A stretch of 64,000 nt of DNA from an uncultured Paracoccaceae bacterium (lineage in GTDB: Bacteria > Pseudomonadota > Alphaproteobacteria > Rhodobacterales > Rhodobacteraceae): the NCBI GenBank assembly GCA_913062865.1, contig CAJXWO010000003.1:1-64000 (forward strand), written 5' to 3'. Numbering within the stretch: position 1 is the stretch's first letter; the number at the start of each line of letters is the position of its first letter. Made by a program: the position numbers and the translations under genes. The notes beneath the pieces are model-generated. The model did not search any database. It saw nothing but the letters and a program-made list of their open reading frames with translations, and had not been told where the DNA came from. Shown one piece after another: positions 8,647 through 16,555 of the stretch.

Positions 8647-9549
8647 TCAGGCAGAGCTGAGGATGCGGCAAATCTCGTCCAGCTCTTCAAAGCTCTTGTA
8701 TCGGATCACGACCTGGCCGTTCTCAGCGCCCGGCTTTGCCTCGACACTCACAGCCATGCCGACGGCCGCTGACAGATCACCTTCGAGTGCGCGGGTATCC
8801 GCATCCTTGTCACCCTTGGGCTTGTCCTTAGCCACCGGGCTAGACGCGGTGGCGGGCTTCGCCGCCAGTTTTTCGGTTTCGCGCACGGACAAACCGCCCT
8901 TGACCACCTGGGCGGCCAGCGTTTCGGGGTTCTCGGACGTGATCAGCGCACGCGCATGACCCGCCGACAGATCGCCCCGTGTTACCATGTCCTGCACTGA
9001 TTGGGGCAGTTGCAACAGGCGCATCAGGTTCGCGATATGACTGCGGCTTTTGCCAAGCGCATCCGACAGCTTCTGCTGCGTGTGTCCGAACCGCTCCATC
9101 AATTGCTGATACCCCATCGCCTCTTCGATGGGTGTCAGGTCGGCGCGCTGGATGTTCTCGATGATCGCGATCTCAAGCACTTCGGCATCGTCGAAATCGC
9201 GCACGATCACCGGCAACTCGTGCTGCTGCGCGATCTGTGACGCGCGCCAACGGCGTTCACCAGCGACGATCTCGTAGATCCCGGGCTTTTTGCCTGCACG
9301 GACGATCAGGGGTTGGATCACGCCCTTTTCCCGAATCGACTCGGCCAGCTCTTTCAGCGCGTCTTCGTTGAAGCGCCGGCGCGGCTGGTCCGGATTGGGC
9401 ACGATCTTTTCGATGGGCAGCGTCATGTCCGAGCGCTTTGGCGCAGGTTCGGACCCGTCCTCGGGCACAGAGGTCTGTACACTTTCCAAGTCCGCCATCA
9501 AGGCAGACAGACCACGGCCCAGGCCCCGTTTCGCCTTCTTGTCACTCAT
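8647..9549 (-). CDS. parB: Chromosome partitioning protein ParB
   Basis: CTP-dependent clamp that loads at parS and spreads, marking the origin region for segregation by ParA. Starting at MSDKKAKRGLGRGLSALM (9549; the track's longer start enters parA) gives 300 residues. The N-terminal region contains the ParA-activating basic segment. The CTP-binding fold includes PNPDQPRRRF and the GERRWRASQ motif, then the IIENIQRADLTPIEEAMGY box, a helix-turn-helix (LSDALGKSRSHIANLMRLLQLP) and the C-terminal dimer domain. It lies 10 bp after parA. Its two expected binding sites, perfect parS palindromes, are 1.4 and 3.3 kb upstream. Confidence 0.97.
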   Translation of the reverse strand: MSDKKAKRGLGRGLSALMADLESVQTSVPEDGSEPAPKRSDMTLPIEKIVPNPDQPRRRFNEDALKELAESIREKGVIQPLIVRAGKKPGIYEIVAGERRWRASQIAQQHELPVIVRDFDDAEVLEIAIIENIQRADLTPIEEAMGYQQLMERFGHTQQKLSDALGKSRSHIANLMRLLQLPQSVQDMVTRGDLSAGHARALITSENPETLAAQVVKGGLSVRETEKLAAKPATASSPVAKDKPKGDKDADTRALEGDLSAAVGMAVSVEAKPGAENGQVVIRYKSFEELDEICRILSSA

Positions 9550-9559
9550 TCTGCACCTC

Positions 9560-10369
9560 TTACGCCGCGGCGCGCGCGGTCTTGTTGAGCAGCTCTTTGG
9601 CCAGCTGCCGATAGGCGACGGCCCCCTTGGAGGCCGGATCATACTCCAGGACGGGCACGGCGTAGGAAGGCGCCTCGCTCACCCGGACGTTCCGGGGGAT
9701 GATCGTCTGGAAGACAAGATCGCCAAGATTGTCACGCGCGTCTTGCTCGACCTGTTGGGACAGGTTGTTGCGCGCATCATACATCGTAAGCACCACGCCT
9801 TCGATCCGCAGGTTCGGGTTCGCGGTCTGGCGCACCTCGCGAATGGTCAGCATCAGTTGCGACAGCCCTTCGAGCGCAAAAAATTCGCTTTGAAGCGGGA
9901 TCAGAACAGCGTGTGACGCGACCATTGCGTTGACGGTCAACAGGTTGAGCGACGGCGGGCAATCAATGAGAATGAAATCATACGCGAATTCTTCCATCGC
10001 CGGCGGCCGCAGCGCATCATGCAACAGGAAGCTGCGCTTTTCATTGGCGATCAGCTCAATATCTGCCGAACTAAGATCCGTCGTCGCCGGGATGATGCTG
10101 AGGCCATCGGTCTCGGTGGACTGAATGACCTGGTGCAATGCGATGTCTTCCAGCAAAAGCTCATAGGTGGTCAGATCTCTGTCCTCCGGCTCGATCCCAA
10201 GCCCAGTCGAGGCATTTCCCTGCGGGTCCAGATCGACGATAAGCACCCGGCACCCTTCACTTGCCAACGCGGCGCCAAGGTTGATCGTGGTCGTCGTCTT
10301 TCCCACGCCGCCTTTCTGGTTGGTCACCGCGATGATTTTGGGCCCGGGGGGGCGGGTCGGATCAGACAC
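9560..10369 (-). CDS. parA: Chromosome partitioning ATPase ParA (Soj)
   Basis: Walker-type ATPase that binds non-specific DNA and pulls ParB-parS complexes apart. The 269-residue protein starts [18 protein letters not shown] and has the deviant Walker A motif KGGVGKTTTT at residues 19-28, then VDLDPQGNASTG and the DFILIDCPPSL Walker B segment. It overlaps the 3' end of rsmG by 8 bp and is followed by parB, the standard chromosomal par arrangement near the origin. Confidence 0.97.
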   Translation of the reverse strand: MSDPTRPPGPKIIAVTNQKGGVGKTTTTINLGAALASEGCRVLIVDLDPQGNASTGLGIEPEDRDLTTYELLLEDIALHQVIQSTETDGLSIIPATTDLSSADIELIANEKRSFLLHDALRPPAMEEFAYDFILIDCPPSLNLLTVNAMVASHAVLIPLQSEFFALEGLSQLMLTIREVRQTANPNLRIEGVVLTMYDARNNLSQQVEQDARDNLGDLVFQTIIPRNVRVSEAPSYAVPVLEYDPASKGAVAYRQLAKELLNKTARAAA

Positions 10370-10976
10370 GGGTGATTCCTCCGATCTTTAGAATAACGGC
10401 GCTGGGTTCTGTCTTACTTGTACGCGCCTCGCAGTCGAAGCGCCACTGGACGCGTGCGTTATCCACTTCCTTTTTCCAGTTTGCTCCCTTGGGAAACAGA
10501 GCCGCCCCCCCTTCGCACAAATGGCGTTCGGCAAAGCCTAGCAGCGTGTCCAGATCTGCAAGCGCCCGGGCGCTCAGGATATCGGCCGACAGTGGCGCGG
10601 TTGCCTCGATCCGTCCAGCGACCACCGTGGCAGGTGCCCCCGTTTCGCGGATCACAGTGCGAAGAAACGCACATTTGCGCTGGTCGCTTTCGACCAGTGT
10701 GACCTGCGCTACTGGCGAAAACTCCGCAGCAAGAATGGCGATCACCAGGCCCGGGAACCCGCCGCCACTGCCTAGATCCGCCCAGTGTTTCCAGCCCTGT
10801 GGTGCAAGATCGAAGATCTGCATCGAATCCGCGATATGACGGGTTTCCAGGTCATCTAGTGTATTTCGAGACACCAGGTTGATGCGCGGGTTCCACTTGC
10901 GCAAAAGCTGAGCATAGATCTCGAGCCGTTCAGATGTTTCACGTGAAACATCCATCGGCGAATCAAATGTGCTCAT
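10362..10976 (-). CDS. rsmG: 16S rRNA m7G527 methyltransferase RsmG (GidB)
   Basis: S-adenosylmethionine-dependent methylation of 16S rRNA G527 (E. coli numbering). It is 204 residues, with the SAM loop [15 protein letters not shown] near residue 70 and SDQRKCAFL after it. The start ATG overlaps the mnmG stop in ATGA. Codons 8-13 (MDVSRET) are spelled by a perfect parS palindrome, so this part of the sequence is under double constraint. Confidence 0.96.
10935..10950. promoter_or_regulatory. parS site 1 (within rsmG)
   Basis: TGTTTCACGTGAAACA is a perfect 16-bp palindrome identical to the widely conserved chromosomal parS consensus. It lies inside the first codons of rsmG. Together with the nearby parAB genes it defines a ParB loading centre. 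Confidence 0.95.
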
Positions 10977-12850
10977 GCGGTCTGTGCCCGCTTGGCCTGA
11001 CGCAGCTTTGCCAGCAGCAAAGCCAGGGCAGCGGGTGTCATCCCCTCGATCCGGCCAGCTTGTGCCAGGGTCGCCGGTCTTGCTGTCGTCAGTTTTGCCT
11101 GCAGCTCGTTCGACAGCCCGTCGATCCCATCAAAAGAGAACTCGGGCGGGATCACCTGCGCCTCGTCGCGGCGCATGAGCTCTACGTCCCGCTGCTGCCG
11201 TTCAATGTAATTCGCATACAGTGCTTCGCGCGACAGCTGATCGGCCACCTCTTTGGGCAAGGCGGCAATCGCGTCATCAAGCGCGGTCAGATCGTCGAAA
11301 TCGACCTCGGGGAACGCCAGGACCTGAAACGCTGTCCGGCGTGTGCCATCCTGGTTTACCTGAATACCGGCAGCGCGCAGTTGCGATGGCGTGTAGTCCT
11401 CCGCCGTCAGAACGGCGCGGCCGGCCTCGAGGGCCTCCATCTTCTGCGCGAACGTCCTCCGCCGGGTTTCAGTCAGACAGCCGACCTTTTCTGCCAATGG
11501 CGTCAAACGCTGGTCGGCATTGTCCGCGCGCAGAGACAGGCGGAACTCGGCGCGCGAGGTGAACATGCGATACGGCTCGCTCACCCCGCGTGTGGTGAGG
11601 TCATCAACCATGACGCCGATATAGCTATCGGTGCGGGAAAAGATGACCGGCTCTTCTTCACGCACAGATCGCACAGCATTCAGCGCCGCGACCATGCCTT
11701 GGGCCGCGGCTTCTTCATAACCGGTGGTGCCATTGATCTGACCGGCAAGGAACAGCCCCGGCACATCATGCACCGCCAGCCGCGCATCCAGCGCACGGGG
11801 GTCGACGTAGTCGTATTCGATGGCATATCCTGGCTGCAGGATCTTCGCCTGCTCCAACCCATGGATCGACTGCACATAGGCCTCTTGCACATCCTCCGGC
11901 AACGAGGTCGAGATTCCGTTGGGATAAACTGTGTGGTCGTCGACGCCCTCTGGCTCCAGGAAGATCTGGTGCGATGACTTATCGGCGAAACGTACGATCT
12001 TATCCTCGATCGAGGGGCAATAGCGCGGGCCGATCCCGTCGATATGCCCGCCATACATGGCAGACCGATCCAGATTGTCGCGAATGATCGCGTGGGTCGC
12101 CTCGTTCGTATGGGTGATACCGCAGGGGATCTGCCTCAGATAGGCGCCCATGGTGAGGAAGGAAAAGAACACCGGCTCGTCATCACCCGGCTGCGCCTCC
12201 AGCTTGTCCCAAGCAATGGTACGCCCATCTAGGCGCGGCGGCGTCCCGGTTTTCAACCGGCCCAGCGGAAGGCCGAAACTGTCGATCCGCTCGGCCAGTT
12301 TTACCGACGGGCGGTCGCCCATACGGCCACCGGGGCGAGAAACGTCGCCGATATGGATCACGCCCCGCAGAAAAGTCCCGGTGGTCAGAACGACGGCACC
12401 TGCGTTGACCTGGCTGCCGTCGCCCAATGCGACGCCGGTCACACGGTTTCCTTGCATCAGGAAATCGGTGACCTCGCCCTCGAGAATGGTCAGATGTTCC
12501 AACGCGGACAGCTCTGCCTGCATCTCACGCCGGTACACCTTGCGGTCCGACTGCGCGCGGGGGCCTTGCACAGCAGGGCCCTTGCGGCGGTTCAGTAGGC
12601 GGAACTGGATCCCCGCCTTATCCGCAACGCGTCCCATCACGCCGTCCATCGCGTCGATCTCGCGCACCAGGTGGCCCTTGCCCAGGCCACCAATTGCCGG
12701 ATTACAGGACATGACGCCGATGCTGTCAAAGGTCAGCGTGATTAGCGCGGTGCGTGCGCCCATACGCGCAGCAGCAGCCGCGGCTTCGGACCCAGCGTGC
12801 CCGCCACCCACGACGATGACATCGAAATCCAGATGTTTCACGTGAAACAC
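10973..12850 (-). CDS. mnmG: tRNA uridine-5-carboxymethylaminomethyl modification enzyme MnmG (GidA)
   Basis: FAD- and NADH-dependent partner of MnmE for the cmnm5U34 modification of tRNA wobble uridines. The protein is 625 residues. It begins [30 protein letters not shown], where GGGHAG binds FAD. Other signatures are [22 protein letters not shown] and [13 protein letters not shown]. The start is a GTG (12850), because the parS palindrome occupies codons 1-6; the upstream GGAGT supports it. It starts 3 bp after mnmE ends and overlaps rsmG by 4 bp. Confidence 0.97.
12834..12849. promoter_or_regulatory. parS site 2 (at the start of mnmG)
   Basis: A second perfect TGTTTCACGTGAAACA palindrome, 1,899 bp from the first, covering nearly the whole start region of mnmG and reaching into its GTG start codon. 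Embedding of parS in the mnmG start is a known alphaproteobacterial arrangement. Confidence 0.95.
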
Positions 12851-14162: not shown

Positions 14163-15434
14163 TCAGGTGTTCATGGAATCGAAGAATTCACTGTTGGTCT
14201 TGGTCTGCTTGAGCTTGGACAAAAGGAACTCGATCGCGTCGGTCGTGCCCATCGGGTTCAGAATGCGGCGCAGAACAAAGGTCTTTTGCAGGTCCACCTT
14301 ATCGACCAGCAGATCCTCTTTCCGCGTGCCGGATTTGAGGATGTCGATGGCCGGGAACACACGCTTGTCCGCGATCTTGCGGTCCAGCACGATTTCCGAA
14401 TTGCCGGTGCCCTTGAACTCTTCAAAAATCACCTCGTCCATCCGGCTGCCCGTGTCGATCAGCGCGGTGGCGATGATGGTCAGGCTGCCGCCCTCTTCGA
14501 TATTCCGGGCCGCACCAAAGAACCGCTTGGGCCGTTGCAGCGCGTTGGCGTCCACACCGCCTGTCAGCACCTTGCCCGAGGACGGGACCACGGTGTTGAA
14601 GGCCCGACCCAGACGCGTGATAGAATCCAGCAGGATCACCACGTCGCGCTTGTGTTCGACCAGGCGCTTGGCCTTTTCGATCACCATTTCCGACACGGCA
14701 ACGTGGCGGGTCGCCGGTTCGTCGAAGGTGGAGCTGATGACCTCGCCCTTCACGGACCGCTGCATGTCGGTCACTTCCTCGGGGCGTTCGTCGATCAGAA
14801 GGACGATCAGGTAGCACTCCGGGTGGTTCTTTTCGATGCTCGAAGCGATGTTCTGCAGGATCACAGTTTTACCGGTCCGCGGCGGCGCCACAATCAGCGA
14901 CCGCTGCCCCTTGCCGATGGGCGCGACCAGGTCGATCACGCGGGCGGACTTGTCCTTGATCGTCGGATCTTCGATTTCCATCTTCAGCCGCTCATCAGGA
15001 TAAAGCGGCGTCAGGTTGTCGAACGCGATCTTATGGCGGGCACGCTCGGGCTCTTGGAAATTGATGCTGTTGACGTTGGTCAGAGCAAAATAGCGTTCGG
15101 TATCCTCGGGAGCCCGGATCGCACCTTCGATCGTGTCGCCTGTGCGCAGGGAATACTGACGGATCATGTCGGGCGAGACATAGATATCGTCGGGGCCGGG
15201 CAGGTAGTTCGCCTCGGGCGAGCGCAGGAAGCCGAACCCGTCTTGCAGCACTTCAAGCACACCGTCGCCGGCGATCTCCCACCCCTCTTCGGCGCGTTCC
15301 TTGAGGATTTGGAACATCATGTCGCCCTTGCGCATGGTCGAGGCGTTCTCGATTTCGAGCTCCTCTGCCATGGACAAAAGGTCTTTTGGGCTTTTTGCCT
15401 TCAGATCGGCAAGGTTCAAGCGTTCTTGGGTCAT
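14163..15434 (-). CDS. rho: Transcription termination factor Rho
   Basis: Hexameric RNA helicase that terminates untranslated transcripts. Starting at [20 protein letters not shown] (15434; the track's start is 23 codons upstream, inside the AT-rich region) gives 423 residues. The RNA-binding cold-shock-like domain includes [10 protein letters not shown]. The P-loop [10 protein letters not shown] lies in the middle, followed by the [14 protein letters not shown] segment and the catalytic [12 protein letters not shown]. It is the first gene of the minus-strand rho-mnmE-mnmG-rsmG-parAB run leading away from the putative origin. Confidence 0.97.
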
Positions 15435-15958
15435 GGCATATCTTCGGAAAGCAGGGATCGTCCGTTCAAACGGTGCGCGATCTATGTGTCGGGGAAAGTC
15501 CACGTCGGACGACGTTGCGCAGGCTGATAATCCTATCCGGTCTCCGAGTCAATCTGACGCGTGCCGGTCCTGTCTGGTTACCTCTCATAAATATAAGAAA
15601 GAAAAGAAAAAGGATGATGATGTAAGGGCCGACCATCTTTGTGGATTATCGGGTTTTCCCGGTTTCTCCTCTTGTGGGGAAAACCCCTGATCTCCGTCCC
15701 CAAAACATTAACTTCGTAAATTAACATGATTTGTCAGACACTTGATAGGTATGAGCCATGCCAGGCCTGTGTATGGTTCCGGTATAAGCCCCGTGTCACT
15801 CACCGTGTCCACAACCCGGACTTATCCTATCCCGAACGGGACAGGTGGGGCACGAACCACCGTGTTGTCCCCGGGGCGCGTGACGCTTGCATCCAAAGCC
15901 CTGTTTCCCCAGAAAGACCCCACCGCTTGTCGCACCTGTTGTCCACGGAAAGATCCAC
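15435..15958. other. Candidate chromosomal replication origin (oriC), non-coding
   Basis: This 524-bp gap between divergent rho and maf is the longest gene-free stretch here. It contains an unusually AT-rich tract (ATAAATATAAGAAAG onward, about 15588-15622). It has a near-match to the DnaA box at 15640-15648 (TGTGGATTA, one mismatch to TGTGGATAA). Weaker boxes are at 15673, 15805, 15939 and 15951 (each two mismatches). A 10-bp inverted repeat GGGTTTTCCC/GGGAAAACCC spans 15651-15686. The flanks (rho-mnmE-mnmG-rsmG-parAB on one side, maf-aroE-coaE-dnaQ on the other) are those that surround the origin in several Rhodobacteraceae. The assignment is inference from context and motifs. Confidence 0.7.
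15640..15648 (-). promoter_or_regulatory. Candidate DnaA box in putative oriC
   Basis: TGTGGATTA is the best match in the region to the DnaA box (TTATCCACA on the minus strand), with one mismatch. It lies directly beside the AT-rich tract, as expected for an unwinding element. Confidence 0.5.
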
Positions 15959-16555
15959 ATGCCGCGTCTTGTTCTGGCCTCCGGTTCCGAGATCCGCGCC
16001 CAGCTCTTGCGCCAGGCGCAGGTCGCTTTCGATGTCGAAAAACCCCGGGTCGACGAAGACGCCGTGCGTGCCGCGCTCGACGCCGAGGGTGCCAGTCCCC
16101 GCGACCAGGCCGATGCCCTGGCCGAAATGAAGGCACGGCGCATCGCGGACAAGCATCCCGATGCGTTGGTCCTTGGTTGTGATCAGGTACTTGACTGCGC
16201 GGGCAAGGTGTTTGCCAAACCCGAAACACCGGAAGATGCCGAGCGGCAGTTGAAACAGTTGCGCGGCAAGACCCATCGCCTGCTTTCTGCGGCCGTGTTG
16301 TACGAGAATGCTGAACCGACCTGGCGCCATGTCGGTGTGGTCCGCTTGCACATGCATGACCTGTCGGACGCCTATATCGCCGAATATCTTGACCGGAACT
16401 GGGAAAGCGTGCGCCATAGCGTCGGGGCCTACAAGCTTGAGGAAGAGGGCGCGCGATTGTTTGCGCGGATCGACGGGGATTACTTCACCGTGCTCGGCCT
16501 GCCCCTGCTCGAGCTGCTGTCACACCTGGTCCTGCGCGGAGAACTGAACCGATGA
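15959..16555 (+). CDS. maf: Maf family nucleotide pyrophosphatase
   Basis: Septum-formation-inhibitor family; characterised members hydrolyse dTTP/UTP or modified NTPs as a house-cleaning function. The start MPRLVLASGSEIRAQLL is at 15959, so the track's 24 upstream codons belong to the putative origin region. The 198 residues contain the family's LASGSE opening, VLGCDQVL near residue 78 and the GDYFTVLGLPLLELL end. It leads the maf-aroE-coaE-dnaQ run, overlapping aroE by 4 bp. Confidence 0.95.
   Translation: MPRLVLASGSEIRAQLLRQAQVAFDVEKPRVDEDAVRAALDAEGASPRDQADALAEMKARRIADKHPDALVLGCDQVLDCAGKVFAKPETPEDAERQLKQLRGKTHRLLSAAVLYENAEPTWRHVGVVRLHMHDLSDAYIAEYLDRNWESVRHSVGAYKLEEEGARLFARIDGDYFTVLGLPLLELLSHLVLRGELNR

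Follow-up and report, generated by a model that had tools for sequence, protein, structure and literature searches.

The gap between rho and maf in the DNA analysed here is predicted from its sequence to be a chromosomal replication origin (oriC), and we put the probability of this assignment at roughly 95%. The predicted origin core occupies about the last 400 bp before maf (~15555-15959). We favour this reading because a module of the region is conserved across the family, DnaA boxes are enriched at fixed offsets, the gene order is shared with relatives, and the GC skew switches away from dnaA; the oriC call of the original prediction thus draws support from a single-copy module next to rho, from the fixed-offset boxes, from gene order and from the skew of relatives relative to dnaA. 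We regard the rho-maf gap as an ordinary oriC of known alphaproteobacterial type, to which the conserved, putative unwinding module adds a modest new detail. For a draft genome, the assignment would narrow the origin down to ~400 bp.

Gene neighbourhood of the rho-maf gap

The window, by which we mean the whole 64-kb stretch analysed, comprises bases 1-64000 of contig C3 (93,565 bp) from an assembly of 104 contigs and 2.79 Mb. The Rho protein encoded by this genome shares 94% identity with Pseudodonghicola Rho and is near other Rhodobacteraceae Rho proteins. Its gene, recognized by Pfam Rho domains, forms the left flank of the gap (14166-15434, minus strand), and maf (15959-16552/16555, plus strand; Pfam PF02545) the right flank. 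Pfam assignments further placed mnmE, gidA, gidB, parA and parB on the left of the gap, and aroE, coaE and an exonuclease-domain (dnaQ-like) gene on its right. The region at 15435-15958 had been described as the sole gap of more than 300 bp in the window, which holds as far as checked: the other candidates left by a crude ORF caller contain plausible genes on inspection, namely tsaE-like, mlaC-like and rph-like ORFs. Rfam searches returned no RNA within 15000-16500.

Two parS sites and parAB had been placed within 7 kb of the gap, and all were confirmed there. ParB is encoded at 8650-9642 and ParA at 9563-10369, both on the minus strand and both identified by Pfam. Exact matches to the parS sequence TGTTTCACGTGAAACA lie at 10935-10950, inside the start of gidB/rsmG, and at 12834-12849, inside the start of gidA/mnmG. 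These two perfect sites are the only copies in the genome, and both are located 3-5 kb from the gap. Each of them falls within the start of a coding gene, the one in gidA being translated as MFHVKH.

The relative orientation of rho (minus) and maf (plus) around the region was kept in all sampled alphaproteobacterial loci having both genes, and the gene order was conserved from Rhodobacteraceae to Caulobacterales, Rhizobiales, Sphingomonadales and Pelagibacteraceae. This shared order supports the oriC assignment of the gap, which had been noted to sit between gene sets that border oriC in Rhodobacteraceae. Gap sizes in Rhodobacteraceae were mostly ~460-590 bp, as in the window, or ~1 kb with hemJ beside rho; hemJ, absent from the window, separates rho from the predicted origin core in 30 of 46 sampled Rhodobacteraceae. 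We delimited the predicted core to ~15555-15959 on two grounds: the opening 120 bp of the gap are poorly conserved in the 46-sequence alignment, and the hemJ gene of relatives separates this part from the remainder. The segment at 15435-15554 looks like the rho 5' leader or promoter side of the gap and probably lies outside the core.

DnaA boxes and a conserved, putative unwinding module

With TTATCCACA as the consensus, the rho-maf gap of the window contains no perfect DnaA box. One near-perfect and four weaker boxes had been predicted, and all five were recovered at their positions: the R1-like box TAATCCACA (15640-15648, minus strand), with one mismatch, and, with two mismatches each, TTCCCCACA (15673-15681, minus strand), GTGTCCACA (15805-15813, plus strand), TTGTCCACG (15939-15947, plus strand) and AGATCCACA (15951-15959, plus strand), the last of which is a direct reading and overlaps the first base (A) of the maf ATG. 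A single box at ≤1 mismatch is weak when taken singly: as many were reached in 52 of 500 dinucleotide-shuffled versions of the gap. The cluster of five boxes at ≤2 mismatches, in contrast to 1.5 expected, is beyond chance (8 of 500 dinucleotide shuffles), and it ranks first among 500-bp segments along the entire 93.6-kb contig.

The same analysis of the gaps of 46 Rhodobacteraceae yielded 124 boxes at ≤1 mismatch (6.05 per kb) against 5.6 after dinucleotide shuffling, a 22-fold enrichment over shuffled sequence; rho itself harbored 0.11 per kb. Perfect boxes numbered 22 in the non-coding gap of these relatives, compared to 0.2 expected. Relative to the extrapolated start of maf, box positions recurred at offsets of ~-323, -295, -191, -155 and -10. 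The box at 15640 is present in many relatives as the same box on the same strand, at ~-323 from maf, and the most frequent offset (31 of 46) is that of the box at 15951, which overlaps the maf ATG. The boxes of the window genome have diverged from consensus; weak boxes are also a trait of the Caulobacter origin (PMC4468827). Through the box over the maf start, expression of maf may be tied to occupancy of the origin. In most relatives the maf start codon is overlapped by a DnaA box in the form TTATCCACATG.

No duplex in the 64-kb window is less stable than the AT-rich tract proposed near 15588-15622, the minimum being a 36-bp stretch at 15588; at lengths of 60 and 100 bp, the least stable segments are those at 15567 and 15573, respectively. 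We delineated the putative unwinding tract (DUE) as 15588-15621 on the plus strand. It carries a NAN triplet run with 12 successive central-A triplets, the last of which ends at 15621, and terminates in GATGATGAT; AAAGGATGATGAT is conserved in relatives.

The tract and the first DnaA box together form a conserved module (15582-15661, plus strand). To describe it, the corresponding AT tract plus first box was aligned from 40 relatives, excluding the window, to give a sequence-only model of 91 positions, model R1. A search of the window genome with this model returned one match, at 15582-15661 (E 1.6e-13), and none other at E≤10. Across the family, 116 of 151 genomes had a match, exactly one each, and 35 had none. 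Matches were located 110-2313 bp upstream of rho and in matching orientation in 111 of the 116 genomes, the remaining five being weak, on a contig other than that of rho, or in a genome with no listed rho. Among genomes outside the genome-search part of the training set, 82 of 86 matches were at rho, a figure to be read with an incomplete separation of training and test sets, in that some of the named training loci could come from genomes treated here as held out. Use of nhmmer with the same segments identified the same sites in the window and in relatives G112 and G050. The open-licence literature searched yielded no description of the conserved module, which may be new, as may its application as a single-copy marker. 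The model marks the predicted origin in most Rhodobacteraceae genomes, including drafts in which GC skew is unusable, and could aid coverage-based growth-rate estimates, correct genome numbering and the design of origin-based vectors.

Between the module and the right-hand boxes lies an IHF-like sequence, TGTCAGACACTTG (15732-15744, plus strand), with one mismatch to WATCARNNNNTTR. Over 46 relatives, 23 matches to the IHF-like motif, some of them counted on both strands, fell in the 10-bp bin of the 15732 offset, and 27 of the 46 sequences had a match at -250 to -190. The element at 15732 is thus a predicted, IHF-like site at an offset common to relatives. Within the right-hand array, ACTTATCC (15821-15828, plus strand) is among the best conserved alignment columns; this block, ACTTATCC/AGTTATCC, is one of the most conserved on the right-hand side of the predicted origin and contains no full DnaA box match.

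GC skew and alternative readings

GC skew was sampled in stretches of the genomes of relatives, those of G040, G112, G050 and G093 being complete, and is continuous only over short stretches. In G040 the skew minimum (3,220 kb) coincided with rho (3,222 kb), and dnaA was 66 kb off in uniformly positive skew. G112 displayed a broad minimum at 2.455-2.49 Mb, with rho at 2.455 Mb and dnaA at 2.548 Mb, and G050 a minimum at 104 kb, with rho at 124 kb and dnaA at 0; in both genomes the switch was ~20-35 kb from the gap. The signal in G093 was weak and weakly consistent with the gap, the sign of GC3 changing at ~2.72 Mb, near rho (2.735 Mb), and not changing at dnaA (2.233 Mb). G008 was an exception, in that a sharp switch at ~2.75 Mb (its contig C3, about 2.74-2.76 Mb) was ~150 kb from rho (2.911 Mb), yet farther still from dnaA (3.224 Mb); an inversion or an assembly error is a possible cause of this discrepancy. 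On the window's own contig, from a fragmented assembly, the cumulative minimum was weak and flat and fell at 32 kb, not 15.5 kb. Over these genomes, the skew supports the neighbourhood and not the exact base.

These profiles bear on where else an origin might be sought. A switch at dnaA or hemE had been named as the observation that would speak against the rho-maf gap. The dnaA contig of the window genome (94 kb) is uniformly negative, in every 10-kb block, no sampled relative showed a switch at dnaA, and hemE of the window genome is on another contig than rho-maf. An origin adjoining dnaA, with the rho-maf cluster acting as a DnaA-titrating site, accordingly strikes us as extremely improbable. 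Numbering genomes from dnaA is a common convention, and five near-complete assemblies are numbered in this way, as this reading would have it, but in ten genomes the 2.3-3.5 kb around dnaA contain no more than one box at ≤1 mismatch, and no skew switch is seen at dnaA in the contig of the window genome, G040, G093, G112 or G008. The breadth of the skew minima in G112, G050 and the window contig (20-35 kb) would accommodate an origin elsewhere in the parAB-gid-rho neighbourhood, of which the gap would only be a neighbour. We consider this, too, to have hardly any chance of being correct, as the contig has no comparable box cluster elsewhere, the window no less stable duplex elsewhere and the genome no second copy of the module.

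A different objection is that the gap might be a mere divergent rho/maf promoter region in which DnaA regulates the transcription of maf and rho. In most relatives the last box runs into the maf start codon, and the first 120 bp resemble a rho leader; both are in keeping with such a role. A promoter and terminator consensus scan of the gap returned none; as it covered promoters of the sigma-70 type, it weighs weakly against this reading. A promoter region leaves unexplained the clustering of boxes, the low stability of the duplex, the switch in skew and the linkage to parS, as well as the fact that the module stays in place when hemJ parts it from rho. We therefore hold the promoter reading to be very unlikely, and retain oriC as the preferred assignment of the gap.

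Comparison with known origins

By analogy with characterised origins, opening of the predicted oriC and helicase loading would involve DnaA and IHF at 15640 and the array, and may proceed as follows. DnaA would bind the first box (15640), and bending by IHF at ~15738 would help DnaA fill the weak right-hand array (15805-15959). Assembly of DnaA would then melt the AT tract at 15588-15621, upon which the helicase would be loaded and two forks would leave; separation of the new origins would then fall to ParB at the pair of parS sites 3-5 kb away. With a conserved tract beside the first box, DnaA-dependent origin opening in alphaproteobacteria becomes amenable to a simple assay. In Escherichia coli, oriC is laid out as an AT tract, a TGTGGATTA-type box, an IHF site and a box array. 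The same order of AT tract, TGTGGATTA-type box, IHF-like site and box array is found in the window, although the boxes of the window are weaker, the gene context is other, and, judging from the sequence, the tract has its T-rich strand on the opposite side relative to the first box.

The run of central-A triplets 5' of a DnaA box is reminiscent of the DnaA-trio system of Bacillus subtilis, defined by a DnaA box, a spacer of 0-16 bp and three or more NAN triplets (PMC8287927), with repeats of the form 5'-TAG-3' (PMC10316083). The NAN triplet run averages 6.15 in the family versus 3.78 in shuffled sequences, and reaches 12 triplets in the window. The spacer of the window, however, is 18 nt, above the limit of 16, and its repeat is 5'-GAT-3' rather than 5'-TAG-3'. 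That the Rhodobacteraceae lineage-specific module (purine-rich central-A tract, GATGATGAT, fixed spacer and TGTGGATTA box) is a diverged DnaA-trio system with 5'-GAT-3' repeats is a tentative idea that we consider rather doubtful.

Ori-Finder has been used to predict Rhodobacteraceae origins one genome at a time from the skew minimum, DnaA boxes and proximity to parAB (PMC6699656), and our assignment is alike in family and criteria. The main text of that study leaves rho/maf flanks unnamed and describes no conserved module; the module and its linkage to rho were measured here. The Caulobacter oriC lies between hemE and COG1806 and carries DnaA and IHF sites (PMC1914354). The window resembles Cori of Caulobacter crescentus in its neighbourhood, with rho on one side and maf on the other, and in its weak DnaA boxes, predicted IHF site, AT-rich tract and nearby parS (PMC1914354, PMC4468827, PMC6399470). 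It differs from Cori in being flanked directly by rho and maf, not by hemE and COG1806, and in that a search of the gap for CtrA-type TTAA-N7-TTAA sites gave none at ≤1 mismatch. The CcrM methylation motif GANTC occurs at 3.9 per kb in the gaps of relatives (n=46) versus 0.97 per kb in the window, where the gap contains one site.
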